DNA of 64,000 bases, taken from Cunninghamella blakesleeana. Taxonomy: Eukaryota > Mucoromycota > Mucoromycetes > Mucorales > Cunninghamellaceae. The stretch is from contig JAFCIZ010000001.1 of the NCBI GenBank assembly GCA_017871115.1, positions 539,501 through 603,500 of the forward strand, given 5' to 3'. Under the pieces are notes generated by a model. That model had not been told where the DNA came from, ran no database searches, and saw nothing but the letters and a program-made list of their open reading frames with translations. Shown in pieces: positions 3,108 to 58,083 of the stretch (position 1 is the stretch's first letter; each line of letters begins with the position of its first letter). A program made the position numbers and the translations under genes.

Positions 3108-4354
3108 ATGACTACTTCAACCGCCACTGTTATTGATGGAAAAGCAATTGCTCAGTAAGTTCTATATTATTGTTTACATATATTGATAAAATAAGAACGC
3201 GTGAATAATAAAACAAAACAAACAAACATAAAATATCACCTTTATATATATATATACTTGTATATTCATTTATATTATTTATTAATCCTTTTTTTTTCGT
3301 TTTTGTGTTCATTTTCGTTTTATATTTGTATAGACGTGTACGTGATCAAGTTAAAGAAAATGTTATCAATTTAAAAGCAAAACATCCTCATTTTAACCCC
3401 CATCTTGCTATTGTTCAAGTTGGTGCTCGTGAAGATTCTACCATTTACGTTCGTATGAAAGATAAGGCTGCTAAAGAAGTAAATATATATTTATATTTAT
3501 AAAGTTTGTTTTTGTTTTTCTTTTTTTCAAGTACATACATAAAACAACTTATTTATCTATTTGTTTATTTATTATTTTTACTTGTTATCTTTTATTTCAG
3601 GTTGGTATTGATATCACTACTCAAAAGTTGCCAGAAACTATTACACAATCCGAATTATTAGCCAAAGTAAAGGAATTAAATGATAACTGGCGTATTCATG
3701 GTATTTTAGTTCAAATGCCTTTACCCAGTCACATTGATGAAACTGCCGTTATTGAAGCTATTGATTATAGAAAAGATGTAGATGGGTAAATAAAAGTAAA
3801 TAAATAAACATGATTCGCAGCATAAATAATAATAAAGATGAAACATCTAAGCCGTTCTTTTTTTCATATTATTTTTATTCATATTATAGTTTTCATGCTA
3901 TTAATATTGGTAACTTATCCAAGAGATCTGGTCAACCTCTTTTCTTACCTTGTACACCAAAGGGTATTATCACCTTATTAAAGTCTACTGGTAATACATT
4001 ATCATTATTATTATGTGTTTACATAAACTTGCATCTAATGGCTTACTTACCTTCTCTTTTTTTAATACTTAGGTATTGATATTAGTGGAAAAAATGCTGT
4101 AGTTGTTGGACGTAGTGATATTGTTGTAAGTATATAAATGCATGTTTAAAATTACTAAAAATAAATAAACAGATAGGTAAGGAATATGGCTTGTGGATAT
4201 GAATATTTATAAATATATATACATATATATTATATAGGGATCACCTGTTGCTGCATTACTTACTTCCGAAAATGCTACTGTTACTGTTTGCCATTCCAAG
4301 ACTCAAAATATCCAAGAAATTGTAAGCAATTCAAATACAATAATTATTTATTTC

Positions 4355-4399
<45 letters not shown>

Positions 4400-7383
4400 A
4401 CGTTATTCATTCCATGTTATTTTATTTCGCAATTTTTTTTACTGCTAATTAAAGGTATCGAAAGCTGATATTCTTGTTGTAGCTATTGGTAATGCTGAGT
4501 ATATTAAAGGAAGTTGGGTCAAACCTGGTGCTGTTGTCATTGACGTTGGAACTAACGCTGTCACTGGTAATATATATACATATATTTAAAATATATATAA
4601 AGAAAAATAAAACGAAAAAAGTTTCTTATTTAATATGCATATATATGTGTTTATATGAATAGATACAACAAAGAAATCTGGTATTCGTTGGGTTGGTGAT
4701 GTTGAATATGCCGAAGCCGCTAAAGTAGCCAGTGCTATTACACCTGTTCCTGGGGGTGTTGGACCTATGACTGTAGCTATGTTGATGGAAAATACTTATG
4801 AAAGCGCTAAGCGTTGGTTTGAAGAAAGTCGCAAACGTGATATTACTCCTTTACCTCTTGAACTCCTTACACCTGTTCCTTCTGATATTGATATTGCTAT
4901 GGCTCAAAAACCTAAACATTTAGGTACTTTATGTAAAGAAATTGGATTAAGTGGAAGTGAAGTAAGTATTTAAATAAAAATATGGGTATTTATATATGTA
5001 TTTTTTATATTTATTTATTTATTTATATATGATCATCATACTAATCATCGATTTTATTTTATTTTTTTATTTTTTGAAACCACCATAGTTTGAACTTTAT
5101 GGTCCTTATAAAGCAAAGATTAATTTAGATGTCCTTGAAAGATTACAACATCGTAAGAACGGAAAATATATCGTTGTCACTGGGTAAATATAACATAAAA
5201 TAAGTTATTATAATACAATGTATCTTTTCAATTGATATAAATATAAATATAATAATATATATATATATATATATATTAAAAAAATTAGTATTACTCCTAC
5301 TCCACTTGGTGAAGGTAAATCAACTACCACTATTGGTTTAGCACAAGCCCTTGGTGCCCATCTTAAAAAAGCTACTTATGCATGTGTACGTCAACCTTCT
5401 CAAGGTCCTACTTTTGGTATCAAAGGTGGAGCTGCTGGTGGTGGTTATTCTCAAGTGATTCCTATGGATGAATTCAATTTACATGTAACTGGTGATATCC
5501 ATGCTGTTACTGCTGCTAATAATTTATTGGGTAATACTAAAATTTAAAAAATAGATTAAATTGGTATATATATGTAACGAAATATTGATCTTAATTAATT
5601 CTATATTGACTTATATATTATATTTAGCTGCTGCCATTGATGCTCGTATGTTCCATGAAAATACTCAATCCGATAAAGCATTATTTAGTCGTTTATGCCC
5701 TGCTAAGAAAGGTGTTAGAAAGTTTGCCCCTGTTATGTTGAAGCGTCTTAAGGTAAATATATAAATATTATTATTTTATATAACTGTGTTATACTATATA
5801 TATATATATATATTATTTTATTTTATTTTTAAACTTAATATGTATATTTTAGAAACTTGGTATTAATAAAACTGATCCTAATGAATTAACTGAAGAAGAA
5901 ATTAAAAAATTCGCTCGTTTGGATATTGATCCTGCTACTATTACATGGCAACGTGTTATGGATACAAATGATCGTTTCTTACGTAAGATCAGTATTGGAC
6001 AAAATCCTACCGAAAAAGGACAAGAAAGACAAACTGGATTTGATATTGCTGTTGCTAGTGAAGTGATGGCCGTTCTAACCTCTTCTACTGATTTACAAGA
6101 TATGAGACAACGTTTAGGTAATATGGTAGTAGCTAGTTCAAAACAAGGTGAACCTGTTACTGCTGATGATATTGGTATTGGTGGTGCTCTTACTGTCTTG
6201 ATGAAGGATGCCATTAAACCCAACTTGATGCAAACTTTAGAAGGTACACCTGTATTGGTTCACGCTGGTCCTTTCGCTAACATTGCTCAAGGTAACTCTT
6301 CTATTTTAGCTGATAAGATTGCTTTGAAATTAGCTGGTACTGAAGGCGAAGATATGGAGCCTGGTTATGTTTTAACTGAAGCTGGTTTTGGTGCTGATAT
6401 GTAAGTTTTATATAAATGTATATTAAAGATAATTAAAAATATGGATAAATGGTATAATATGTTGTTTTCTTTATTAACTCTATTGATTTATTTTTATTCT
6501 TTACTATAGGGTAATAATAATATGCAGCTTTTGTTTAATATATATAAAAATTAATATGTATACTAAATAAATATATGTATATGTATATTATTTTTTTCAT
6601 TAGGGTATGGAAAAATTCTTCAACATCAAGTGCCGTACATCTGGATTAGTCCCTGATTGTGTTGTTTTAGTGGCTACTGTTCGAGCTCTTAAGATGCATG
6701 GTGGAGCTCCTGAAGTTGTTGCTGGTAAACCTTTACCTGATGCTTACACAGAAGAAAACGTTGAATTTTTAGAAGCTGGATGTTCCAATTTAGTTCGTCA
6801 TATTCAAAACGCCAAGAAATTCGGTGTTTCTGTTGTAGTAGCTGTCAACCGATTCTCTTCTGATACTGACGCGGAAATGGAATTAATCCGCAAATTAGCT
6901 ATCGAGGCCGGAGCTGATAATGCTATAGCTTGTGACCATTGGGCTCGTGGTGGTTTAGGAGCTGTAGATTTGGGTAAAGCCGTAATTGAAGCCTGTGCTA
7001 AAGAAAAGGAATTCAAGTTCTTATACGACGTGGATCAACCTATTGAAAAAAAGATTGAAATTATTTGTAAAGAAATTTATCGTGCCGATGGTATTGAATT
7101 AAGTGATCTTGTGAAAGAAAAAATTGCTACCTATACAAAACAAGGTTTTGATAAGCTTCCTATTTGTATGGCTAAAACACAATATTCCTTCTCTCACGAT
7201 CCTAATCTTAAAGGTGCTCCTACTGGTTTTACAGTTCCCATCCGTGATATCCGTGCTTCTGTAGGTGCCGGTTTCTTATATCCTCTTTGTGGCGCCATCC
7301 AAACTATGCCTGGACTTCCTACCCGTCCTTGTTTCTTTGATGTGGATTTGAACGAAAAGGGCGAAGTTGTCGGCTTATTCTAA
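3108..7383 (+). CDS. ADE3: Trifunctional C1-tetrahydrofolate synthase (MTHFD1/Ade3 type), 938 aa
   Basis: Cytosolic-type one-carbon enzyme: 5,10-methylene-THF dehydrogenase and methenyl-THF cyclohydrolase (residues about 1-300), and 10-formyl-THF synthetase (about 315-938). Motifs in order: YVRMK with the catalytic Lys58 (family Lys56), VQMPLP, KDVDG, the NADP-site GRSDIVGSP, the ATP P-loop [13 protein letters not shown] (about 376-388) and [15 protein letters not shown]. No mitochondrial leader is evident. Exons: 3108-3154, 3334-3478, 3601-3785, 3890-3990, 4073-4125, 4238-4321, 4455-4566, 4663-4961, 5089-5183, 5289-5530, 5628-5752, 5853-6400, 6510 (one base), 6604-7383. They sum to 2817 nt, and the 938-residue length agrees with animal and yeast homologues (about 935-946). 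Without the one-base exon the frame breaks at Met679. The enzyme supplies formyl groups for purines and methylene groups for thymidylate. Confidence 0.97.
4357..4395. repeat. (AT)n microsatellite in intron 6 of C1-THF synthase
   Basis: About 39 nt of uninterrupted AT dinucleotide within the intron between exons 6 and 7. Similar arrays recur in introns and intergenic DNA throughout the window. Confidence 0.8.
6510..6510 (+). other. ADE3: Predicted single-nucleotide exon in C1-THF synthase
   Basis: Exon 12 ends at 6400 with GAT AT before donor GTAAGT. Exon 14 starts at 6604 with GGT ATG GAA after acceptor CATTAG. The family sequence Gly-Ala-Asp-Ile/Met-Gly-Met-Glu requires exactly one extra base. 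Inside this interval the sequence ACTATAG, G, GTAATA presents an acceptor AG at 6508-6509 and a donor GT at 6511-6512 separated by one G. Using it gives introns of 109 and 93 nt, typical of this gene, and codon ATG for residue 679. Confidence 0.78.
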
Positions 7384-22380: not shown

Positions 22381-24004
22381 CATTAATATTATCGATGCAT
22401 TCGCATATTTTATATTTCTTCGATTATATAGAAATACAAACAATGTTGAGCTTGTCACTTTTTATTCTTTCTTCTACTTAAATGAAAATATATTCCTTAT
22501 TTAGAAATATAAACTGTAAAAACCATTGACCATTTTATATATAAAGAATACCTTTTCATTGGCTGCTGTCATTTAATTTATTCTTAATGAATTTTAACCA
22601 CACCAAGAAATAAGGATATTGTGATGTTTGAAATTCATTTTATTTAAAGATCATGTATCGAAGAAATTATACCAATTATAATATATTTAAATTATAATCG
22701 ATAAATGAACTTGATTCATTTCTATAATGATTGTTTTTTACACAAGATAACATTGAGAATCCTTGAAGCATAAAGTGCTTCATTGAGTTTTAAAGTAGAA
22801 AAGTTATACGTAGTAAAAAAAAAAAATGTCTACAAGTATTTAATGTATATCTATTTATATTAATTATATAATAATTTCTATATATAATAATTTATATATA
22901 TATATATATTTACATATATTAATATAAGCCACTTTTCTCATTTTATTTTATTGTCAATTAAAAAAAAATAACACACATATATTCACATAACGAAATCATA
23001 CACACATTATTAATTGAGCCGGATTGCCTAATTCCGAAGTTCAAAGAAAAAAAAAAAAAAATAGAAAAAGATCTACTATTACCATCTTTGGGTTAGTTAG
23101 CAACTTTTTTTTTTATATACAAATATAATTTTTTTTTTTTTTTACTCGGGAACCTTTTTTTTTTTTTAAAGTTCAACGCTTTGGTTACACAGAAACGGTT
23201 GACTCCCCCCATCAAATCTAGTATCACCCATTTACATTCATTTACAACAAGAGACACACGTTATAAGTTTTTTATTTATTTTTGTTATTTTTTTTTCTCT
23301 TTCTTTCTTTCTTTCTTTTTCTTTTTTTTCCCTTTTTCTCTTTCTCTTCGTCTTTCTCTAACTCACTCACTTACTTTCTTATTCTTTGTAAATTTTTATA
23401 TAATATTTTCTATATCTTTACTCTCTTTTTATTATAAAAAAAGATATTAAATATATATATAAAAGTATATACCTTAGTAAGGAATCTTCGCTCAAACTTC
23501 TTTAACGTAAAAAGGAAAAGGTAAGGTAAATAAAATAAGAAAATTACCTTGGTTGGAGTTTAAATATAAAATATCACTATAAACAAAAAAAAAAAAAGTT
23601 ATTATTATTAGTTTTGGTTTGTGTAGGAGTATGATTATAATTATTTTTTTTTTGGGGGGAGTAAATATGAGGAGATAATTTGGGCTGTGACGTATAGAAA
23701 ACGAAAAAAAAAACCTAACTTTCAATTTTTTTTCTATCTCTTTCTTTTTTCTCTCTCTCACTTTTTTTTTTATTATTATTATTTTATTTTCCACACTTCT
23801 TTGTGCCTCCCCCTTATTTATTCAATATTGTTATTATAGATTCATCAATCATCTTTCTTTTTTCTTTTAATATATAAATAAATATATATTTATAATTTAT
23901 TTATATATTAGTAAAATCATCTTAACAACTATTACAACAACAAACAAAAGCTTACAGCTAATCATTTAATCATAATAATATTCATTTAAAAAAGAGAAAT
24001 TAAT
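21884..24004. other. 2.1-kb intergenic region upstream of SSN6
   Basis: Longest gene-free stretch together with 33663-35910. It contains T13G7 (about 21989-22008) and T10G7 (near 23650) junctions, a T12A16 junction (about 22353-22380), and a strongly CT-rich block (23280-23420) that resembles a promoter or 5' leader pyrimidine tract for SSN6. A minus-strand open stretch (21986-22351) is compositionally non-coding. I see no further gene. SSN6 may have a long 5' UTR or large regulatory region here. Confidence 0.45.
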
Positions 24005-26058
24005 ATGGCGACGACAGGACCTCAGCAACTTGCAAATACTGCTCAAAAGTTAGCTACCATCAATGAACAAACTTGGTTAACAATGGGTACATACACATAC
24101 ACACACACACACATATATATATATATAATATATATATATTAAATATTAAAAAAGCGTGTTTAAATTTTAATCTTTCTTCTTTGTTGTGCATGTTTAGGTA
24201 ATCTTGCTGAAATGATGACTGACTATGAAAAAGCCATGAACTGTTATGAATCAGCTTTAAGACACAATCCATATTCTATTATTGCTTTAACTCAAATAGC
24301 TTCTCTTTGTCGTGGAAGAGAACAATTTGCAAGGGTAAATATATATATATTATTCCTATACTTTTTATTTTAAACAAGAGATGAAGATGATGAACTAACC
24401 TACTTTTATTTTCTAGGCTGTAGAATATTTTAAACGTATATTAGCTATCCAAGAAAACAACGGTGAAACATGGGCAGCATTAGGACATTGTTATTTAATG
24501 ATGGACAATCTTCAAGAAGCCTATCATGCCTATCAACAAGCCTTATACCATCTTTCTAATCCAAAAGATCCTAAACTTTGGTATGGTATTGGCATTCTTT
24601 ATGATCGTTATGGATCCTTAGAACATGCTGAAGAAGCCTTCTCTGCTGTCATGAAAATGGATCCCAAGTTTGAAAAGGCAAATGAAATTTATTTCCGCTT
24701 GGGTATCATTTATAAACAACAACAAAAATTTGATCTTTCTTTAGATTGTTTCAAATATATTCTTCATTCTCCTCCTCGCCCTCTCACTGAATCAGATATT
24801 TGGTTCCAAACTGGTCATGTTCATGAACAACAAAAACAGGTAATTCTACATAGATATAGCTGTTTATATTTATTTTTTTAATATATCTGTAATAATAATA
24901 ATGATAATAACGTATCGTTCATCATCCTTTTCTTTATTTTTGTTTTATATAGTATGAACAAGCAAAAGAAGCTTATGAGCGTGTTTTAGCAGAAAACCCA
25001 GACCATGCCAAAGTACTACAGCAATTAGGATGGTTATATCATCAACAAAATACATCTTTTTGTAATCAATCATTAGCAATTCAATATTTAACACGCTCTT
25101 TAAAATCAGATAGCGATGATGCTCAATCTTGGTACCTTCTTGGTAGATGTTATATGGCTGAACAAAATTATAATAAAGCGTACGAAGCTTATCAGCAAGC
25201 AGTTTATCGTGATGCTAGAAATCCTACTTTTTGGTGTTCCATTGGTGTATTATATTATCAAATCAATCAGGTAAATAAATTATAAAATAGGTGCATAGAA
25301 AAGTATTAACGTTTAACTAAATATTAACCTAAACATATTTATTGTTATATATATATATATAGTATCGTGATGCCCTTGATGCCTATAGCCGTGCTATTCG
25401 TTTAAATCCTTATATTAGTGAAGTTTGGTATGATCTTGGTACTTTATATGAATCATGTAATAATCAAATTCAAGACGCTTTAGATGCTTATCAACGTGCT
25501 GCTGAACTTGATCCAACTAATCCTCATATTAAACAACGTTTGGAATTATTAAGAAAATCTCAATCTCATACCCCACAAGCGTAAATATATATTATTATTA
25601 TTTTTTTTTGGTGTTATATTTGTATAATTGATTATATATATATATATATATATAAATGTATAGTGGCTAATTATTTATATATATATACTCTTAATTTATT
25701 TAGACCTGGAAGTGTTCCTACTCCTCAAGATGTAAGCAACCCAAGTCAATATCAAAATGGATCAAATGCTCAGCCATTAAATGGATCACCTTATGGACAG
25801 GTAGATAAATATAAAATAAAAATAACACCAATTAGGAAAAAAAAAAAGAGAAAGAGAGAGATGTGTATATAACGTTGATCAATGATATTAATAAAATATA
25901 TGTTATAAAATAGACTTCTGCACCTAGTGGACCTCCTAATGGAATGAGTGCTTATCATACTAGTTCAACATCTTCTCAACGACCTGGCGATGATCGTGGT
26001 CCACCTCCTCAATTACCTGTCGTAAGTCAAATAAAGTTTTATAAAATATCATTATTAT

Positions 26059-26101
<43 letters not shown>

Positions 26102-28059
26102 CATTGACTTTTTTATTTTTATTTTTTTCATTATAGTCACTTCCTCATGAAGGTAGCGCCGGTCCCGGTCGTGATCTTCCTATGCCAAGTGGTCCTCCAC
26201 CTCCATCATCTTCTGGTAGACGTTCTCCTGGACCTTACCCATCCTCATTCCCTCCCCCTTCATCTAGCGGTAATAGTCGTGAAGATGTTCGTATTCCTAA
26301 TATTGGTTCTGGCGGCGGTCGTGCACCCACTCCTTCTGAACGTTCACAAATGAATCCTATTGTACAAGATAATGGTAGAGGCCACAGTCAACATATATCT
26401 ACATCAGGCCCACCTCCTCATCCTCATAGTAATCAACCTGGCTTACCTGCTTTACATCAACCTTATGGAAAACCTGGCCAATCTGATAATATGCGATCTC
26501 CTAATATTTCAAGTGGTGATAATAGTAGACCTCATACGTTAACATCTCCTCATTCAAGACCTTCGCAACCTACTTTACAGCATGGCTCTTCTCCTAAACA
26601 ATATGAATCTGCACCTCATCATCAATCTTTACCTCCACATCGTTCTCCAGCTCTTAGTCATTCAGAGCAACAGCAACACCACCAACAACATCAACAACAC
26701 CCATCTTCACATTATGAACAAGCACCACATCGACCTGAATATGAACAACAACATCCTTCTCAACATGGTCATGGTAATAACCGACCTGGTCCTGAAAGCC
26801 ATTATTCTCATCGAAATGAATCTGCTAATCATTCGCCATCACCAGCTCCTTATTCAAGACCACCTCATACTAATGATCCTTACCACCGTGGTCCTTCAGC
26901 TATTAATGAAGATGTGCCCAATGGACCTCCACCACCATCTTCTCGTCAACAACCACCTTCATCTCATCCTGTTGATATTAAACAAGAACATGAACGCTCT
27001 ATTCGATCTCCTCATCAAGAATCTAAAGAAACCTCTTCACCTTATAATAGATATCATCATCCTGCTGTAAAACAAGACAACAGTAATAATAATGATCGTT
27101 ATGAAGAACAACAACATCCTGCACCTACTAGAGCACCTTTACCTCCTCCTCCATCTTCTAATTCTCGTACAACAGATGACGATTATGATGCCAGCGCTGC
27201 CGATATGCTTTTAAGCATTGGTCAATCACGTGGTGATAAACGTGCTTATCCTCCTGATGAAAGTCAACCTGCCGAAGAACCAAAAAGATTACGTTCTACT
27301 CAAGAGCAAGATAATGATCATCCCATGTCATCTGTTCCTCCTGTTAAAGAAATGAACCACCATAAACCTGCTCCAGTAGAGGAAGAAATGAAACCATCTA
27401 TTTCAAATATAAAATCATCATCGCCTCCACCACCATCATCTACACCTACTACAACTAATACTACTACAACTAATACTAATAATAATAATACTAATAATAA
27501 TAGTACACCAGTAACAAATACAACAACTAATAATAATAATAATAATAATAGTACATCTTTACCACCATCTAAATCATCTTCTCCAGCACCTCCTACTTCA
27601 ATAGCAGCTAGTTCAGAAACCAACTATCCACCACCACCTTCTTCCTCAGCACCTGTATCCTCCTCTTCATCATCACCTAAAGTAGATGTAGCTTCTGCAT
27701 CCACTACCAGTGAGCCTGGTATGTCAACAGCTACTAGCGAAAAGACCCCACCTCCAAAGGAAGTATCTAATGAATCATCAAATCAAGAAACACCTATTTC
27801 ACAACCACCACGATTACCAACACCACAATTACCATCACCACAACCAAACACAACAAATAATAAGTCACACCAACAAGAAGAAGAGGAAGAAGAAGAAGGT
27901 GAAGTAAGAGATGATTTAGATCAAATGAAAACAAAAAAGGAAGATAGTGGTAAAAAAGAAGATGATAAAGAAGAAGGTGAAGTGACATCAAATAATCAAA
28001 CAGATGGTGATAATAAAAAGGAAACAACTCATTCTGAATCTGCTACTACATCTTCATAA
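24005..28059 (+). CDS. SSN6: Ssn6/Cyc8-type TPR transcriptional co-repressor, 1101 aa
   Basis: Partner of Tup1 in general transcriptional repression. Exons 24005-24086, 24198-24334, 24417-24839, 24953-25270, 25363-25580, 25704-25800, 25914-26021, 26137-28059 (3306 nt). Residues about 20-395 are tandem tetratricopeptide repeats, with typical W-LG-Y and A-xxx-Y/F-xxA-xxx-P patterns (WAALGHCYLMMDNLQEAYHA, WYLLGRCYMAEQNYNKAYEA, DALDAYSRAIRLNP); ten repeats are expected for the family. The TPR block matches Ssn6/Cyc8 and UTX/UTY-type repeats. The rest (about 400-1101) is disordered: rich in Pro, Ser, His, Gln and Asn, then acidic with two EEGEV motifs. The last exon carries the whole tail. Introns lie mostly in the TPR part and between it and the tail. 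Confidence 0.96.
26062..26102. repeat. (AT)n(GT)n microsatellite in SSN6 intron 7
   Basis: About 28 nt of AT dinucleotide followed by about 12 nt of GT dinucleotide in the intron between exons 7 and 8. Confidence 0.8.
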
Positions 28060-28476
28060 AAAAAAATATAAAAAATTAAAGAATACTCATAAATAAATTA
28101 AAAAATAAATAAAATAAAATAATCAATAGCAATAATAATCATTATTCCTCAAGCTTGTTTTTTCTTTTTCTTTTTTGAATTAAATTGTTTTATTATATAT
28201 ATATACATATACATATATATATATTTATATTTATATTTATTATTATTAGAAAAAAAAAATAAAGTCTCCATCATTTTTAAATATAGTAAACTCATCTTGA
28301 ACCCTTTTTATATATAAATCTCCTTTAAAAAATAAACATTATTATTATTTCAAAAAAAAAAAAAAAGATCATGATATCAAGTGATTTTACATTTTATTAT
28401 TATTTTAATTGATGATATACATATAAAAAAAATCAGGGGGGGGGAAGAAGGGGGAAGTATCTAAAGTTGTAATGCG

Positions 28477-28523
<47 letters not shown>

Positions 28524-28633
28524 GAGAAATGAAGGAGTTTATATATATGTATGAAAGAATGGGATGAATAATATATGTTTTTTTAAGGGGACAAAAAGAA
28601 AGAAATAATCCATATATAGATATTTTCATTCAA

Positions 28634-28665
<32 letters not shown>

Positions 28666-28794
28666 TTATTTATTCATTCATGTTATAATTTTACTATTGT
28701 TGTTGATGATAATTATTGATGTTGAAGAAGAGGAGAAGAATGAAAAGAAAGATCTGCATGTTTTTGTTTTTATATTTAAAATGTAGGCAAGATT
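28060..28794. other. Convergent 3' intergenic region with (AT)n and G-runs
   Basis: 735 nt between SSN6 and the uL13m gene. Holds a G9 run plus a G5 run (about 28436-28455), an AT array of about 39 nt (28480-28518) and a second near 28636-28660. No ORF is supported. Confidence 0.55.
28480..28518. repeat. (AT)n microsatellite
   Basis: About 39 nt of alternating AT, followed by a few further bases of TA-rich sequence, between the SSN6 and uL13m 3' ends. Confidence 0.85.
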
Positions 28795-35910: not shown

Positions 35911-36842
35911 ATGGCTCAACTAATTAATAGATCTAGAGCAACTGTCTTCCAATCAGCATCTACTTTATTCGGTAGAGGTGTTCACTATGCAGCAAAAGTG
36001 TCAACTCGTAGTCCTTTAGAAATGATTGTTTTTATTTTAATATTGGGCTCCTTTTGTTATTTCTCTTTATTTAATTTGGCACGTTCATCCGATCTCTTCT
36101 CAGGTACAGTGACTCGTTTATACCCAACCACAGTATATGCTTCATCTCAAGATGCTCAATTCCAACCTATTATAAAAGATGATCTTGATAAGGTGACAAC
36201 CGATGATATAGTTCATGTTCAATTGAAACAAATTGTTATCTCTGATCCTCAACGTGGCAATGTTTTGAATAAAGAAACCCTTCAATCCGTTTTACAGTTT
36301 CAACACTTTATTGAACATGAAATCTTTGTACCAGAAGATACTACTATTGGTGGAAAACAATATGGTTATGCTAAAGATTTGTGCTATATGGTCGATCAAC
36401 AAGTTTGCTTTGCTCCTTCTGTCACTGACTTTTGGTTAAAAGATCGTCAGGTTTTACAAAAGGATTCCTCTATTCTTGATACCATTGCCCAGCATCATGA
36501 TCAAGCTACTTATTTACTTGGCGATTTTAATAAAGACAGTAATAATGCAAAATCATTGACTTTATCTTATGCATTCAATGCTTCTACTAAGGCCCATCAA
36601 TACTTGACCGACTTATGGATTCATAAAGTCGCTACTATGGCCCCTGGTGATTTGGTTTCTTTATCTAATACTGCTGGTCTTCAAGATAATATCTTTGTTT
36701 GGTTCTTTATTCTTGCCCGCAATGTCGTTTATCGTATTAAAGAACTTTTAGATGTAGGTTCTTTTTAAAGCAACAACATCAATAACAGCAATACATAAAT
36801 ATCATTTATTTGAGAGATAGAGGTCTCATTTTAATAATCATC

Positions 36843-36873
<31 letters not shown>

Positions 36874-39800
36874 ATCCTATTTAGTTGGCTGATAAGATTG
36901 ATATTATTGTTGTGTTGGCTGGTTATTTAATGATGTGTGCTACTTTTATTTCGCTTTATATCAATATGCGTGCTCTTGGATCTCGATATTCTTTAGGTAT
37001 GTTATAAAAAAAATAATAGACATATAAATATAAACACAAAAAAAAAAACTCGTTTTTTAACCTTATTTTTTATTTATTTGTTTATTTATTTATATAGCCA
37101 CTGCTGTTGTTATCAATGGATTTTTCGCATTTATGCTCTCATTATTAACTGTACAAGCTATGGGTATTAATGTTTCTCCTCATGTACTTGCGTAAGTAAT
37201 AAAAAATATCTTACTACTACTGTGTTTTTTTTTTTTTTATCATATATGTTTATATAAAGAGGTTGAAAAAAAAAGTAGTCATAATAACATCCGTTACTAT
37301 TTTTATATATTTGATTTTATTTTTTAAAGCGAAGCAATTCCATTCTTGGCTGTAACCATTGGTTTTGAACGACCTTATAAACTTACTAAGCGTGTATTCC
37401 AATATAGTAAAGAAACACCTTTAACCAAACAAGAAATTAGAAAAACAATTATGCGTGCTATCGATTCTGTTGCTTTATCTATTGTTGGTGATTGTTTTAT
37501 GGAAATCACTGTTCTTGTACTTGGTGGTAAATCAGGTATTAATGGCCTCCGCGAATTTTGTTTACTTAGCGCTATTTTATTAGCCTATGACTTTATCCTT
37601 TTGTTTACTTGGTATACTGCTGTTTTGGCTTTAAAATTAGAGGTACATAAATAAAATAATAGTAATAATAATATTAATATATAGATTTATATATATATAA
37701 TACAATAATAATAGTTACACTAAACTTAAACTTTTTTTTTTATCTTGCTTTTTTCATTTTAGCTTCTTCGTATTCGTGAAATCAACGGCGCTTCTTCCAG
37801 CAAAAAAGGACAATCTAATACCCCTGGTACTAGTATTATTGGTCGTACGTTTATCAAGGCATTTAGCGATGATACTTCCGCTACAGTTGCAGCTAAAGAC
37901 ACCAACCCTAAAAAGAAACCTGAAAGTACTACTGCTAGTCGTGTCAAATTATTAATGGTAAGTTATATAGATCATTTTTTTTTGGGGGGAGAGGAGGAGG
38001 GATGTCGATTGACTAAAAAAAAAAAAAAAGGAAAAAAGAGAGTATTTATTTATTTATTTATTTATTTTCTCACACCCAACTTTTTATATATTATATTTAT
38101 TATTTTCTATAGTTAGTGGGATTTGTAGCATTGCATATATTTAATATTTGTTCTCCTTTCAATGCTCCTCAAGTAAATATTGAAGACGTCAATATTTCTA
38201 ATGTACTTGATCAACTTTTAAAACAACACCGATCATCCCCTATGGCTTCACGCCCTATTTTAGTAGAAGTATTTCCTCCATTACCTTTCCAAGTAGCCAT
38301 GTCCCATATTAATTGGGTTCCTTCTTTTATTGTTGAACCTATTGAATTATTATTATCTGTTTCAGCTGGTTATATTCAACACCCTGTTATTAGTAAATGG
38401 CTTACCCTTGGTCTCTTTGTTTCTATTTTCCTTAATACTTATTTACTTAAATTAGCCCGTCAACCAAAATCTGCTACTACTACTACTACTGCTACTACCA
38501 CACCTGCTGCTGCATCTACTGCTTCTACTACAACTGCTTCCGTACAACAACCACCATCATCTTCAACAGCAATTACACATCAAAGAAAACCTCGTCGTGC
38601 TACACTTGAAAAGAAAGATTTCCCTCTTCGACCTATTGAAGAATGTATGTCTTTGATCTCCACCCCTGATGAATTACATGATGAAGAAGTAATCACTTTA
38701 GTTCAACAAGGTAAAATGGCCTCTTATGCTCTTGAAAATGTTCTCGGTGATTTAGAACGTGCTGTCAAAATCCGTCGTGCTTTAATCTCTCGCGCCTCCG
38801 TCACTAAAACCTTAGAATCTAGTTTATTACCTTTACATAATTACCATTATGATAAAGTGAAAGGTGCTTGTTGTGAAAATGTCATCGGTTATATGCCTCT
38901 TCCTGTTGGTATTGCTGGTCCTTTAACTATTGATGGTATCGCTACTCATATTCCTATGGCTACAACAGAAGGATGCTTGGTTGCCTCAGCTGCAAGAGGA
39001 TGTAAAGCTATTAATGCTGGTGGTGGAGCTTCTACTGTGGTTACTGCTGATGGTATGACCCGTGGTCCTTGTGTTGAATTCCCATCTGTGATTCGTGCTG
39101 CTGAATGTAAAAAATGGATTGAACAAGATGGTAATGCTATTTTAACAGATGCTTTCAATTCTACATCTCGCTTCGCTAGACTTCGTAATTTAAAGGTAGC
39201 ATTGGCTGGTAAATTAATGTTTATTCGATTCTCTACTACTACTGGGGATGCTATGGGAATGAATATGATTTCAAAGGGTTGCGAAAAGGCTCTTGGTGTT
39301 TTACAAGAACATTTCCAAGATATGCAAATCATTTCACTTTCTGGTAATTATTGTACAGATAAAAAACCTGCCGCTATTAATTGGATCGAAGGACGTGGAA
39401 AATCCGTTGTAGCTGAAGCTGTAATCCCTGGTCCTGTTGTTGAAAAAGTCTTAAAAACTACTGTTGCTGCATTGATTGAATTAAATATTAGTAAAAACTT
39501 GATTGGGTCTGCTATGGCCGGTTCAGTAGGTGGATTTAATGCTCATGCTGCTAATATTTTAACAGCCGTTTATTTAGCTACTGGTCAAGATCCTGCACAA
39601 AATGTTGAAAGTTCCAATTGTATTACTTTAATGTCAGCTGTTAATGAAGGAAGAGATTTACATATCTCTTGTACTATGCCTAGTATTGAAGTAGGTACTA
39701 TTGGTGGTGGAACAATTTTACCTCCTCAACAATCCATGTTGGATATGTTGGGTATACGTGGTCCTCATCCTACTGAACCTGGTAAAAATGCCCAACGTTT

Positions 39801-39957
39801 GGCTAGAATCATTTGTGCTGCTGTCATGGCTGGAGAATTGTCTTTATGTGCTGCTTTAGCCGCCGGTCATTTAGTTAAGGCACATATGGCTCATAATCGT
39901 GCAACTCAACAACCTGTAGTTAGTCAACCTGTTGTTGGTTCTTGTATCAAGTCATAA
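35911..39957 (+). CDS. HMG1: HMG-CoA reductase, 1133 aa
   Basis: Rate-limiting mevalonate-pathway enzyme of the ER membrane, for ergosterol and, in zygomycete fungi, carotenoid and trisporic acid precursors. Exons 35911-36753, 36885-36996, 37098-37191, 37330-37642, 37763-37957, 38113-39957 (3402 nt). One helix lies near residue 40, then a lumenal region, then a sterol-sensing-like membrane block (about 282-430: [22 protein letters not shown]). After a Thr/Ala-rich linker the catalytic domain runs from about 690: [25 protein letters not shown] (Glu about 805), [17 protein letters not shown] (Lys about 936), GQDPAQN (Asp about 1012), GTIGGGT and [15 protein letters not shown] (His about 1105). 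All catalytic residues are intact. The Ser following HNR, target of AMPK/Snf1 in animals, is Ala here. Confidence 0.97.
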
Positions 39958-41348
39958 ATAACTAAAAAAATAAAAAAAAAATTGAATCATCAGATTAGAC
40001 GAGAGAAAAAATAAAATAAAAAAGAGCCATCATCCAGATAGTTTTTTTTTTTTTATAATTTTTTTACTCTCTCTTACACAAATACACACACATATATATA
40101 TACTTATTTTAATTTATATCTACATTTTTTTTTCTTTTTCTTTTTTTCTATTTTCTTCTGTTTAATTGAAACTATTACTTTTTTTTTCATAATCTACACA
40201 TTACATTCCATAATTAATAAACAATAATAAAAATAAAAATAATGCTTTTATAGACAATAAAAAGCTTTTATTCATCGACTTAGTTTAATTTAAAATACTA
40301 TGTTCAAATCTTTTTTAATATAAATATAATTATTCTGAAATTGATTATATATGTATTGTCGATTCTAAGTATCTTTTTTTTTTCTAAAAAAGAGAAAAAA
40401 AAAGTATTACATGTAGATTATATCTATGCTATTGATCAACGTAATAAAATTTCAAATCATCTGGTTTCACTAGTCATTTGCATGTAAGAGTTGTTGCTAC
40501 ACACAAATATACACATTTTGGGATTTTTTTTGACAACCCGTAAAAGGAAATTATCATGCTATGAATTGATCTATCTAATATTACAGAATTTTCATCACCT
40601 AATTGTATAAGTAGTACATTAAATAAATTTAGTTGAATTTTTAACTATTCTTCCTAACGGGAATACTCAAGACGAAGCTAGAAAAGTCCAAACCGATTAG
40701 GATTCTAACTATACCGAGTGAGTAGTGCATTGCTTTTTTAACAATATAATAAAATCAACCACAACCGAATAGTGGATACCGGCTGAGACTGTATGTTGGA
40801 ATTTTTTTTTTTCATTTATCATTTTATATTTCCATTTGTATTATTTTTAATAAATATATATTTTATATTTCAATCCTTTATTTTTTCGATTATCATTATA
40901 ATTAAATTTATATTGATGTTTTTTTTTTTTAATTTTATATATATATATATATTTTAATTTTATATATATTTTTTTTAATTTTATGGTTATCATTGATAAT
41001 ATAACTTTTATTATTATTTTTAATGTTGCTCTTATTTTATTAAATTAAATGAATATAGTAATATATAAAGAAAAATCATTGGTTTTTAATATCTATTATT
41101 ATTAAAAACAAATTATTTTTCTTTTTTTTTTTGTAGTAATATATATATTAAATTAAAAGATAGAAAAAATCTATAATATAGGAGAAAAGAAAATAGAGAC
41201 ACGGAGATAGACTGATAATATATATACATATAAATATATATATAAATCATAAATTTTATTATATTAATTAAAAAGGGGAAGAGAAAATAATAACATTAAA
41301 AATAATAACATTAGAAATAATAACACTAAAAATAAAGATACATTTTTT
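39958..41348. other. Convergent 3' intergenic region with a GC-richer island
   Basis: About 1.4 kb between HMGR and the secreted-protein gene. Mostly AT-rich. A patch at about 40640-40800 is richer in G and C and ends in a T12 run, but has no long ORF and does not fold into a tRNA by eye. Short ATAATAACATTA repeats occur at 41288-41335. No gene is supported. Confidence 0.45.
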
Positions 41349-42695
41349 TTAAGATTTTACAAAATCCTTCCATTGCTCAATAGTAGTAAAAGAAGAAGCA
41401 TGACTATTTAATTTTTCAAGGCTTCTTTTTAATTTAGGATCCATGGACGCATAACGTTTTGTAATCGTAGAAAATTGGGATTTGATTTCATTTAAATCCA
41501 CATCATGCTGATTTAATTGTTGTTTCAAATGATCAACTTGATTTTTAATAGATCTTTTTGCAATAACCTTGGTCAAAAATTTGGCGGGGAGTGGTTGTAG
41601 TTGAGGTTGAGGTGGTTGATTTTCATTGACAATAGGCTCCTTTGACATAGTAGTAGAATCTGTATTATCATTTTCTGTAGATGTGTTAGGTTGAGTGGCG
41701 GGTGGTGATGTAACGTTTTCATTAACAGGCTGCTGATCCTTATTTCCAGTACTATTACCATTACTATCAGTATTAGTATTACCGTTATTAGATATGGGAT
41801 TAGGTTTAGCGTTAGTAGCAGTTGTGGCTGTATCAGTAGTGGTGGTAGTTGTATTAGGTACTGGTGATGTCTGAGGAGATGGTGTTTTATCGTTTCCAGT
41901 AGCAGTTGATGGAGCGACATTTTGTTGGTTCACTTTTTGTTGTTTTTTAGTAGAAGGCTCAATTTTAGTAACATTACTTGCAGAAGTTTGAGGAGGAACA
42001 TGATCGAATGTATTGGTATCTTCGTAATTACCAGGAATGACCACTCTTAAACAACCATATTCTAAAAATAAAAAAATAAAAGTTAATAAAAGTTAATCCA
42101 ACTATCCATGCTATCATTATTATCATTATTATTATTATGATTTAATAAATGAAAAGTTGTATATATATTTACCAGATCTACCGGTAGGGCAGTCTTCATT
42201 ATTTTTACAACAGCGCAAACAAAAACGATTATTAGAAGGTTCGATTAAACTAACAAAATGTGGATAACCTTTACAAATAGCATCAATAGGTTTATGTTTA
42301 GCATGCGCATCATATTGACCCCCACCATCGTTTGGACCCAATTGATAGGCATCTCTATTAAAAAACCCGGTAACTTGTTCATAGGCATCGGTTTTATAAT
42401 AATGAGCCGTTGTAATAAAATTTTTAGGGAAGAGTTTGACACCTGGGACGCTATTGGCCTTTAAACAAAAGGGAATACTATTATCTTCATTTGGAGCAAT
42501 GAGCTGACCAGGTTTAGGTGGTAAAAATAAACAAAAGTTGTTTTCATTTTGAATCATAATTTGTGGAATGGAAGAAGTAGAAGTAGTGGTATTATCAGTT
42601 GTAGTTGCTGTTGTATTAGATTGGTTTTCCTGCTGTTGTGCTTTTACTGTGCATAGTAAAAATAATAATGATAACAATTTTTTTTGATAATACAT
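41349..42695 (-). CDS. Secreted cysteine-containing protein with Thr/Asn-rich stalk, 411 aa
   Basis: Minus-strand exons 42173-42695 and 41349-42061 (1236 nt). Residues 1-20 form a signal peptide (LLSLLFLLCTVKAQ). A globular region (about 45-190) has the pattern NNFCLFLPPKPGQLI, IPFCLKAN, then a C-terminal Cys cluster RFCLRCCKNNEDC and YGCLRV. Proteins with an FCLFLPP block after a signal peptide are widespread in fungi as uncharacterised surface proteins, often described as cell-wall associated. The second half is a Thr/Pro/Asn-rich linker, probably O-glycosylated, ending in a charged coiled-coil segment (KNQVDHLKQQLNQHDVDLNEIK and beyond, about 345-410). No GPI signal is seen. The function is unknown; an extracellular matrix or wall role is inference. 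Confidence 0.8.
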
Positions 42696-54487: not shown

Positions 54488-55822
54488 ATGGTATATTAAT
54501 ATAAAAATAATAATAAAAAATTAAAAGTTGAATATAGAAAAGTACTAAACAATTATATATTATATAAATAAATTTTGTACAGTCGAATAAAGGTGTGCCA
54601 TTTGAAGAAAAACGAAATCGTTTATTAGCAGTTTTTCATGAATCGGTAACTTTTTTTTTTTTGTTTTCAAATATATTCTGTTTTATTGTTTCACCTAATA
54701 GCAATATGACACCTCACGAATAATAACTATATTAACTAGTGTGAAGTATATCAATTGAAAGAATTGGAAAAAATTGGACCTAAAAAAGGCATAAGTAAAT
54801 TTTATTAAAAACAATGTAAAATATATACGTAACTGGTGAAAATCAGAAAAATGAACGAGTTTTTTTTATATTTATTTATATGTATTTTATTCGTATATAT
54901 ATTTTAAAACATTAATGTATAAGCTTCACAATCAGTTAAGGATGTAGTACAAAGTTTGATAGATGATAACTTGATTGTAACGGATAAAATTGGTATCTCA
55001 AACTATTATTGGTCATTCCCCTCGGAAGCTATACGATCTGTAAGCTCAATAAACAGTTATATAAAATAAGTACAAGGTTTAATCATAACCTGGTTTTCTA
55101 CGCATTTTATTTTCTAATAATAAAGAAAAAAAACGTGGCAGAAAATCTCCAAAAACAAATTACTCAAGGGCAATCAATCATTGACCAATTGACCAATGAT
55201 ATAAATAAAGAAAGCAAAGGACGTGATCCATCTGTAAATAGCTATATAATAAATAAATGAATAGAATAATAATTTTTTATTAATGTTTTCCATTCTTCTT
55301 CCAATTCTATAATATATATATATATATATAACCATGATAAAGAATAAACGTACAGATTTATTAAATCAACTAAAAGAAGCCATCGATAGGCAAAAGGAAC
55401 TCTCAGCAGAATTAAAACAACGCCATAATTCGAGTCATAGACTATTTGATATAAAAGGCAAATTATTTTATACATGTTTTTTTTCTTTTGCACGCAACTA
55501 TTTATAATGAACATATATGCATATATATTAATATATTGATATTGTTATATATTTAAATTAGCAAAATCAGCTAAAGTAGCAAAAGATGCAGCCAATCGAT
55601 GGACAGGTAAGATTTTGTTAAAAAGAGAAGGCATATTTTTCTGAAACATATATAAATAGTTATATATATTTGTATAAATATATATATTTACTCATAAACT
55701 TTGAAAATGATGAAGATAATATATGGGCCATTCAATCTTATTGTACAAATCACCTTTATATGGATAAACAAAACTTTAACCAAGCATTCAATATCACGGA
55801 CGAATTTGATTATATTGATTAA
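54488..55822 (+). CDS. MND1: Meiotic recombination protein Mnd1, 203 aa
   Basis: Partner of Hop2; the complex stimulates Dmc1/Rad51 strand invasion at meiosis. Exons 54488-54490 (ATG alone), 54583-54645, 54740-54794, 54924-55039, 55126-55233, 55343-55457, 55562-55606, 55716-55822 (612 nt). Length 203 equals the human protein almost exactly (205). Conserved blocks: GVPFEEKRNRLLAVFHES and the winged-helix YQLKELEKIGPKKGI, SVKDVVQSLIDDNL, IGISNYYWSFPSEAI, a coiled-coil middle, KVAKDAANRWTDNIWAI and the terminal DEFDYID. The intron after exon 6 has no usable GT; a GC donor (AAG, GCAAAT) restores both frame and length. Presence of this gene implies a meiotic cycle. Confidence 0.93.
55458..55561 (+). 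other. MND1: Predicted GC-AG intron in MND1
   Basis: Donor AAAAG/GCAAAT, acceptor AAATTAG. Splicing here gives FDIKAKSAKVAKDAAN, matching the spacing of Mnd1 homologues. The only nearby GT dinucleotides (GTCATA, GTTTTT) are poor donors and change the length. Confidence 0.65.
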
Positions 55823-55997
55823 AATTTAATACCGTGATTTGCAAAATATATAAATTTTAAAGATTTCTTTATCCGCTATTTTTTACTTTTTTTTTTCCCT
55901 CACCACTTTTTTATCTTCCCCTCTCTTTTTCATTTATATATACATTTATATTTCTTTCACTTTATTATTTACATAGCTATATATATTTATCCATACC

Positions 55998-56685
55998 ATG
56001 TCAAATAAAAGATTATCTTTTGCTAATTTTCCTATACCTTTTGACCATCCATATACTTTACCAACACTCATAACTACTGTGACAGTGTCAGCTATTGCTT
56101 ATTATTCGTTACAGGCGTCTTATAATGCAGAAATGATAGATGCTCTCAGGAAACAGCAAATGAAAAAAAGAAAACGTATGAATCGGCCTGAAGATAGATA
56201 TGCTAGTCTCCAAGTAATAATAACAATATTAAGTATATGAAAAAAAAAATAAAAAAAAAAATAGTTTGATCATTAGTATCTACATCTCATTATATATACG
56301 TATATATATATATTATAGATTGAAGCTACATTTGTTAACCCTTTTGAATCGTGGCAAGAACCCTCATGGAAAGAGCTTCTCTTATATTGGATAAAAAGAA
56401 ACTGGCATAAAAGTTTTATTTACAAAAGGGTAATAAAATAAATAATAATTATATATAATTATATAATCAAATATAAATATTAAGCTTAAATAAGTAAAAT
56501 TCACGTTTCAATATATATTTGTATACATATATATATTTGATTATTTTAGAACTTGAATAAAGAATACCCAGTGGATCAGCCTGATTTTGATCAAATATTC
56601 CCAAAAAATATGATAAATAATTCATGGGCTGATGCCGAAGATAAAAACACAAAGAAAAATACAACTTTTACATGGCTTGGGTAAG

Positions 56686-56727
<42 letters not shown>

Positions 56728-58083
56728 GTAAGGGTTTTGTATATTTATATTTTGTTTTATTTGCATAATATAGCCAATCAACATGCCTTGTTACATTAGA
56801 CGATGTTACAATATTAACGGATCCTATTTTTGATGGCACTCCTAATACAAAAAAACGTATCTCTTCTTCTCCATGTTCACTATCTGATATACAGCAACAC
56901 ATAGACATTGTTTTAATTTCACATGATCATGCTGACCATTTGGGTAAATTAATAATAAACAATTAATAATTTCATTACGAAAAATAAATATATAAAAAAT
57001 ATACTTTTCATTTTATTGATCAACATTTTACTTATTTATTTATTTATATTTTTTTAAAAAATAAAATAGATAAGCAAGTGGCCCATCAATTAGGTAATTC
57101 TGTAACTTGGTATGTTCCCCTTGGTCTTCGTGATTGGTTTACGAAACAAAACATAGATAATGTAAATGATATCACTAAAAGTATATATATATATATATGA
57201 AATCCAATAGATTATTATTTTAGACAATATATTTATGTTATATATATATTTGAATAGGTTATTGAAATGGATTGGTGGCAAGAAATTAGACATAAAGAAC
57301 GTCCTGAAATTGTTATTGCTTGTGTACCAACTATGGTAATAAAATAAAATTACTTTTACTAGATATATATAAAATAATTTACTCATTTTTATACTATTAT
57401 TAATATTATTTATTAATCCAAAATATAAATAGCATTCTAGTGGTGGATGGGTATTTAATAGAAATCAGTCATTGTGGTGTGGTTTTGTGATAAAAAACCA
57501 GCATGAAAGCTTTTTATTTTGGTATGTTATGAATAAAATAGAATAAATCGCATACACGCATACACACACATATATATATACATATACATATACATAAAAA
57601 ATGCTTCTGGGTGATAAAAGTTAATATTTTTCATTTTTTATTTTCTATATATTTATATATAGTGGAGCTTCGGGATATGATAAAGATTTATTTAGAGCAA
57701 TTGGAAAAATATACTCACCATTGACGTTAGCCGCATTACCAATTGGAGGATATAAGCCTAAAAATATATTTAGAGCATTAAATATGGATCCAACAGAAAC
57801 CATTAGAGCACATCATGATCTTAGATTACCACACCTAACAGTAGGGATACATTGGGGAACTTTAAATTCTGAAGAACCATTTATGGAACCAAGTCGTATT
57901 TTAGAAAAAAATTTAATTCGAGATAATATATTCACTACTTTATCATCCACACCTTCATCTTCACCTTCATCTTCATCATCTACCCTATTAGTAAACCCTG
58001 AAATAGACACAAATAATAGCTCTAATGAAACATCATCGTCTTGTATAACTTCACCTTTAGGAAAGTCAATTTTTATTTCGTGA
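55998..58083 (+). CDS. NAPE-PLD-like metallo-beta-lactamase hydrolase, 435 aa
   Basis: Exons 55998-56213, 56319-56429, 56550-56680, 56774-56943, 57070-57161, 57258-57335, 57433-57521, 57663-58083 (1308 nt). A hydrophobic segment near residues 22-38 (TLITTVTVSAIAYYSLQA) may anchor it. The metallo-beta-lactamase core contains HDHADHLD (His203, His205, Asp207, His208, Asp210), TWYVPLGLRDW, the VPTMHSSGGW block, SGYDKDLF, LAALPIGGYKP and IHWGT. These are the landmarks of N-acyl-phosphatidylethanolamine phospholipase D, which releases N-acylethanolamines. Homologues in fungi are often mitochondrial or membrane-bound. The Ser-rich tail (about 390-435) is disordered. The substrate assignment is by family only. 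Confidence 0.9.
56691..56721. repeat. (AT)n microsatellite in intron 3 of the NAPE-PLD-like gene
   Basis: About 31 nt of alternating AT in the intron. Confidence 0.8.

Follow-up and report, generated by a model that had tools for sequence, protein, structure and literature searches.

The C1-tetrahydrofolate synthase locus

The stretch of DNA from the soil fungus Cunninghamella blakesleeana analysed here (the window; 64,000 nt, positions 539501-603500 of contig C1 in a 31.9 Mb genome of 12 contigs) contains a gene of folate metabolism, a C1-tetrahydrofolate synthase of the MTHFD1/ADE3 type, placed by a gene model and Pfam at 3108..7383 on the forward strand. The model has 14 coding exons, one of which is a predicted exon of a single nucleotide, and 13 introns of 82-179 nt, with intron 1 being 179 nt long. 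When this nucleotide, G6510, is included, the coding sequence amounts to 2817 nt (938 codons and a stop), and the Pfam families THF_DHG_CYH, THF_DHG_CYH_C, and FTHFS are each matched as one stretch in the 938-aa protein, the FTHFS profile over positions 2-556 of 556. A profile search of the contigs, confined to the best-scoring candidates, found one FTHFS locus in the genome, and a genome similarity search in which the best candidates were scored found no paralog or second allele of the intron 12-13 region. Nine short AT-rich stretches elsewhere (e.g., C6:4048209, C5:3478329, and C6:4491859) are 72-87% like parts of introns 12-13 and are probably simple AT-rich sequence. Among the protein matches listed, two distinct C1-THF synthases occur in several other Mucorales (Halteromyces, Chlamydoabsidia, Absidia, Apophysomyces, and Lichtheimia); the one FTHFS locus found here would mean either that this lineage has lost a copy or that one was missed.

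Sixteen genes were predicted in the window, and nine of them, in addition to the 938-aa protein, were run against Pfam. One of the nine is a fusion by the gene-finding HMM of two neighbours, an Mnd1-like meiotic protein and a metallo-beta-lactamase-fold protein (54488-58083, forward strand; HMM and Pfam). An HMG-CoA reductase with a sterol-sensing domain lies at 35911-41383 on the same strand (HMM and Pfam), its domains intact and its predicted tail doubtful. At 22826-28743, again on the forward strand, the HMM also predicted a long protein that is repetitive in its first part and ends in a low-complexity tail; we take it to be reminiscent of the Cyc8/Ssn6 TPR co-repressor.

The feature of interest lies between exons 12 and 14 of the synthase gene, where all elements are read on the forward strand. 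Exon 12 (5853..6400) ends in phase 2 (...GGT GCT GAT AT) and is followed by intron 12 (6401..6509; 109 nt, GTAAGT...TACTATAG), the acceptor end of which reads ACTATAG. The predicted one-nucleotide exon 13, a G at 6510..6510, would be the third base of the Met679 codon (AT/G), as judged from the reading frame and the enumeration of splice sites. Intron 13 (6511..6603; 93 nt, GTAATA...TTCATTAG) starts at the next base and has the acceptor end CATTAG, and exon 14 (6604..7383) begins in phase 0 (GGT ATG GAA) and carries the last 259 codons and the stop. A single base at 6510 therefore separates a canonical AG from a canonical GT (ACTATAG-G-GTAATA). The coordinates and letters given in a preliminary description of this DNA were rechecked against the sequence and the gene model and are correct base for base. 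A 7-nt direct repeat, TAGGGTA, is present at 6507..6513 and again 94 nt on at 6601-6607, so that its two copies span the 3' splice sites of introns 12 and 13. Candidate branch sites, both weak guesses, are TTAAC in intron 12 and CTAAA in intron 13, some 32 and 37 nt from the respective 3' ends.

Removal of 6401-6603 as a single intron causes the frame to be lost after ...FGADM, with stops following, and residues 680-938 (259 residues) depend on G6510 for their frame. At this place the motif GAD[MI]G, with no gap, is found in all of the homologs listed in the alignment (120/120). The best protein match among those listed, an NCBI protein from C. echinulata (P0001; 938 aa), differs at 5/938 residues and has the same residues at the motif. 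Omission of G6510 thus breaks the frame and its inclusion gives the conserved protein, in agreement with the preliminary description, which had stated that a single GT-AG intron destroys the last 259 conserved residues (borne out by the gene model and the 120 colinear listed homologs) and that the added G gives 938 codons plus a stop, colinear with the family (borne out by the model, Pfam, and the homolog alignment).

Splicing alternatives and the properties of the two introns

To which other splicing patterns could the conserved protein be attributed? Single introns with GT-AG, GC-AG, or AT-AC ends were enumerated for donors in 6350-6459 and acceptors in 6470-6669; this gave 11 other in-frame introns, all of which delete 3-28 residues of the conserved region. 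The exact 938 aa result from single cuts only with GT...TA (6401-6602) or TA...AG (6402-6603). When the interval bounded by donor 6401 and acceptor 6603 was scanned for micro-exons (1-60 nt) that leave an intron of at least 45 nt on each side, G6510 was the only frame-restoring solution. Finally, all two-step GT..AG removals within 6381-6640, in which the first intron removed was at least 40 nt, were tried by brute force, and the conserved protein was obtained only via 6401-6509 plus 6511-6603, in either order. The brute force found no parse as a stwintron, which is thereby excluded; in that arrangement, the internal intron interrupts the donor, branch site, or acceptor of the external intron, and the two are not separated by any exonic base. 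Because both removal orders yield an identical message, a one-nucleotide exon and stepwise splicing amount to a single reading; the preliminary description was right to propose each of them, but not to set them against each other as alternatives.

The properties of the two introns were compared with those of other introns of this genome by means of a gene-finding HMM built on 212,862 bases, comprising the window, 36 of 42 other loci, and 40 kb from elsewhere in the genome. The 42 loci came from an FTHFS search, a similarity search with the intron region, and a search for YAGGGTAATA; six of them (L001-L005 and L015) were dropped as repeats of the window, two that were kept in the intron-statistics set (L039 and L040) share about 0.5 kb, and 29 loci of this set had been chosen by the YAGGGTAATA motif. 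The HMM output contains 366 introns, of which 117, all predictions, are of higher confidence in that they have two clearly coding flanking exons. Nine of the 117 come from the C1-tetrahydrofolate synthase gene, introns 12 and 13 not being among them, and the splice-site matrices were derived from the 108 introns of other genes, with the synthase gene excluded. Although the HMM recovered the one-nucleotide exon itself, this is not independent evidence because the HMM was seeded with the same gene, at the end of which it also placed a false 209-nt intron that replaces the stop codon.

The higher-confidence introns have a median length of 111 nt and a 95th percentile of 175 nt. The 109- and 93-nt introns, which had been described as ordinary in size, are indeed near this median. 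The companion statement that 203 nt would be unusually long is true to the extent that 95% of the 117 introns do not exceed 175 nt, but intron 1 of the same gene has 179 nt and 4/117 introns reach at least 203 nt. The donor hexamer GTAATA is the third commonest, present in 14/117 higher-confidence introns. When scored with the 108-intron matrices, the donor at 6401 falls at the 75th percentile and that at 6511, which is below average strength, at the 19th, whereas the acceptors at 6509 and 6603 fall at the 92nd and 91st. On both length and splice sites, the introns that flank G6510 (109 and 93 nt) resemble the functional introns of this genome, as represented by the predicted set. Branch sites carry little weight in this comparison, as there is no strong consensus: CTAAY occurs in the last 60 nt of 7% of the 108 introns and a loose form in 59%.

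A plain AG-N-GT is common in these AT-rich introns, occurring in 44/364 of the other predicted ones. The 101 other predicted introns of at least 130 nt contain six AG-N-GT places with 60 nt or more to either end, and at none of the six do both sites score above the 10th percentile. When 203-nt introns were simulated (200,000 in all), 0.0065% contained a pair, again no closer than 60 nt to either end, that equalled or exceeded the one at 6510 in both sites, and 0.053% contained one that did so in summed score. Since 29 loci had been selected by the motif, the count in real DNA was repeated on unselected sequence only; over 207,850 positions, counting both strands, the summed score is reached at three places, namely 6510, the acceptor of exon 14 (6604), and one elsewhere. 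The motif YAGGGTAATA is not enriched genome-wide (133 places, against 167 for the reversed pattern), and the HMM placed no one-nucleotide exon in the 29 other loci of the data set that contain it. An AG-G-GT with sites of this strength within the interval is more than chance.

A probable one-nucleotide exon and its rivals

As read from the DNA, G6510 is most probably a constitutive one-nucleotide coding exon of the C1-tetrahydrofolate synthase gene that is spliced in two obligatory steps, and we put the probability of this reading at roughly 0.8. The same interpretation had been offered in the preliminary description, and it is supported by the enumerations, by the ordinary character of the introns and their sites, and by about 39 kb of conserved coding sequence that contains no unexplained frameshift.

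The last of these observations bears mainly on the most serious rival, which is that the assembly, or the DNA of the strain, is one base short at a splice boundary, so that a single ordinary intron is present and its internal AG-G-GT is there by chance. The missing base would be a G, either from the exon 12 boundary (6400/6401) or from the G run 6603-6605, and because both boundaries adjoin G, the loss of one base there could easily escape notice. Introns of about 203 nt, though rare, do exist among the higher-confidence introns (4/117), and annotation of the C. echinulata protein met with no difficulty. However, matches to HSP70 (28/30 rows, 16,926 nt) and to TCP1 (36/36 rows, 15,876 nt) are free of unexplained frameshifts, as are 2,145 aa of Pfam matches, counted over the matched parts only and each in a single stretch, in the nine other window genes. 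The HSP70 and TCP1 matches form 40 neighbouring pairs; the three with the smallest gaps (45, 53, and 53 nt) overlap in their profile ranges and represent introns of 93-137 nt. From the approximately 39 kb as a whole, we estimate by the rule of three that indels occur at a rate of at most about 8 in 100,000, and an error would also need to strike one of a few bases. It would further demand a coincidence, in that a strong, frame-restoring AG-G-GT (0/101 comparable introns; 0.007-0.05% of simulated ones) would have to split the interval into two halves of normal length. With about 39 kb devoid of unexplained frameshifts, an assembly error at the exon 12/14 junction is unlikely. The two HSP70 rows excluded from the frameshift count belong to one copy, read as decayed (L047, C6:1383101-1385200), which is matched from profile position 203 and has several internal stops and a frame change without an intron-size gap; it looks like a decaying pseudogene.

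A single non-canonical intron that provides the base is far less probable still. GT...TA (6401-6602) and TA...AG (6402-6603) have in their favour that no other single cuts yield the exact 938 aa. However, canonical sites able to do the job exist (6401-6509 and 6511-6603), and the ends GT...TA and TA...AG fall outside the GT-AG, GC-AG, and AT-AC classes of introns. Moreover, a cDNA aligner unable to place one-nucleotide exons would be expected to report exactly 6401-6602 or 6402-6603; an annotation with GT-TA or TA-AG coordinates would therefore not prove such introns. Similarly improbable is the view that the transcript is mostly spliced as a single 203-nt intron, with the out-of-frame message being degraded and the one-nucleotide exon arising, inefficiently or under regulation, as a by-product. 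Both outer sites, the donor (GTAAGT) and the acceptor, are strong, and 6400 could in principle be joined directly to 6604. On the other hand, this would be the fate of the only FTHFS locus found among the best-scoring candidates, in a housekeeping pathway, and it calls for an intron of 203 nt where 95% of the 117 higher-confidence introns have no more than 175 nt.

The protein of C. echinulata does not discriminate between these structures: its correct residues could be encoded in that strain with a one-nucleotide exon as well as with an ordinary intron. The annotation of its gene is correct and presumably automatic, which would be easier to achieve with an ordinary intron there than with a one-nucleotide exon. 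For the single-nucleotide exon of CYP621A in Fusarium, the authors describe all automatic transcripts but one as wrong at the exon (PMC12940212). In three protein searches, with the best 120 rows of each inspected, no broken Cunninghamella gene model came up, and because automatic annotation usually fails on a one-nucleotide exon, their absence counts mildly against conservation of the exon. A search with the 18-mer from the end of exon 12 returned stretches in bacterial (27) and viral (9) contigs and no fungal copy; five of these stretches are bacterial FTHFS genes.

Mechanism, origin, and known single-nucleotide exons

If G6510 is a one-nucleotide exon, it would be abutted by two ordinary GT-AG introns of 109 and 93 nt. 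The acceptor AG (6508-6509) and the donor GT (6511-6512) could hardly be recognized by splicing factors at the same time, as the footprints known for acceptor- and donor-reading factors require them to alternate when one base lies between. With AG and GT one base apart, introns 12 and 13 would have to be removed one after the other. Removal of intron 12 first would leave ...GATATG/GTAATA, a usable second donor, and removal of intron 13 first would leave ...TATAG/GGGTATGG, a usable acceptor. We would guess that intron 12 precedes intron 13, because the donor of the latter is weaker. In either case, G6510 would complete the Met679 codon within the GAD[M/I]G motif and the last 259 residues would stay in frame. 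We infer both the use of the one-nucleotide exon by the spliceosome and the order of removal from sequence.

How such an exon came into being is a more speculative matter. One possible, tentatively held route is a compensated frameshift, in which the end of exon 12 lost a G (...ATG/GTAAGT becoming ...AT/GTAAGT) and a pre-existing AG-G-GT took over recently, which would have left a housekeeping gene dependent on two-step recursive splicing in a fungus with short introns. The loss of a G followed by rescue is the kind of scenario that Nelson and Syed proposed for Fusarium (PMC12940212). If the compensated frameshift is true, related strains may keep the ordinary single intron, and the birth of a one-nucleotide exon could be compared between strains. 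A second intron gained one base inside exon 14 would also fit. The TAGGGTA repeat at the two acceptors may be a trace of such a gain of intron 13, or a matter of chance. An origin of one intron by tandem duplication of the other was considered and rejected; the two share only short AT-rich matches and this 7-nt repeat.

Single-nucleotide exons are already a known kind, in a handful of genes, and a study of placozoan mitochondrial cox1 reportedly describes a one-nucleotide exon between two introns. The preliminary description had cited the functional single-nucleotide exon of Arabidopsis APC11, correctly (PMC4674806), and had known of no fungal example, a statement that the Fusarium CYP621A exon (PMC12940212) and the snoRNA transcripts of Candida (PMC5033589) have made outdated.

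The CYP621A exon, published by Nelson and Syed in February 2026 with 18 SRA reads (PMC12940212), is much like the one proposed here: a single G in an AG-G-GT within a conserved motif of a fungal protein-coding gene, a combined interval well above the usual intron, and a frame that breaks upon omission. It differs in being from Ascomycota and from a P450, in providing the middle base of a Gly codon, and in having 20 orthologs (PMC12940212), whereas the present case concerns a housekeeping gene of Mucoromycota and the last base of a Met codon, and is known from the DNA of one genome. In Candida parapsilosis and its relatives, single-base exons were described in 2016 in snoRNA clusters II and III (PMC5033589). 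According to the same source, these are likewise fungal nuclear transcripts with two spliceosomal introns one base apart, and in cluster III both introns leave by classic splicing, but the exons are non-coding and free of any frame dependence, the introns carry snoRNAs, the species are Ascomycota, and cluster II also uses nested and recursive routes (PMC5033589).

Two plant examples are documented by experiment. In APC11, one base between AG and GT is needed for the frame, as it would be here, and Guo and Liu (2015) gave proof by cDNA and GFP constructs; in contrast to the present case, the base is an A, the interval is 422 nt, and the exon is experimentally proven in a plant (PMC4674806). The 1-nt microexon of VPS55 in land plants, confirmed by RNA-seq and RT-PCR, is likewise a nuclear one-nucleotide exon, one that annotations had missed, but it belongs to plants, is conserved across flowering plants, and is used alternatively in some species (PMC8831610).

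Several related systems share part of this arrangement. Fungal stwintrons also consist of two adjacent introns that need consecutive splicing, but there the internal intron splits a splice signal of the external one and no exonic base lies between (PMC5639578, PMC9024468). At the ratchet points (0-nt exons) of Drosophila, an acceptor and a donor are juxtaposed and the first step presents the second donor, whereas the junction is AG/GT with no base kept, the introns are mostly long, and recognition relies on a cryptic exon that has a donor downstream of it (PMC8605326). In the synthase gene, one base would be kept and the introns are about 100 nt. With AG and GT one base apart and that base needed, G6510 does not fall under the definition of a ratchet point, although it may still work like one. 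Ophiostoma rnl-576/577 also has one base between two introns, but these are self-splicing group II introns of a mitochondrial rRNA gene and not spliceosomal (PMC12308204).

Besides Fusarium CYP621A, we found no protein-coding one-nucleotide exon of a fungus in the open-access library searched. If confirmed, G6510 would be one of very few protein-coding one-nucleotide exons known and, within the open-access literature found, the second protein-coding case in fungi and the first from a fungus that does not belong to Ascomycota. As a housekeeping gene, the C1-tetrahydrofolate synthase gene should be expressed at a level sufficient for easy RNA tests.
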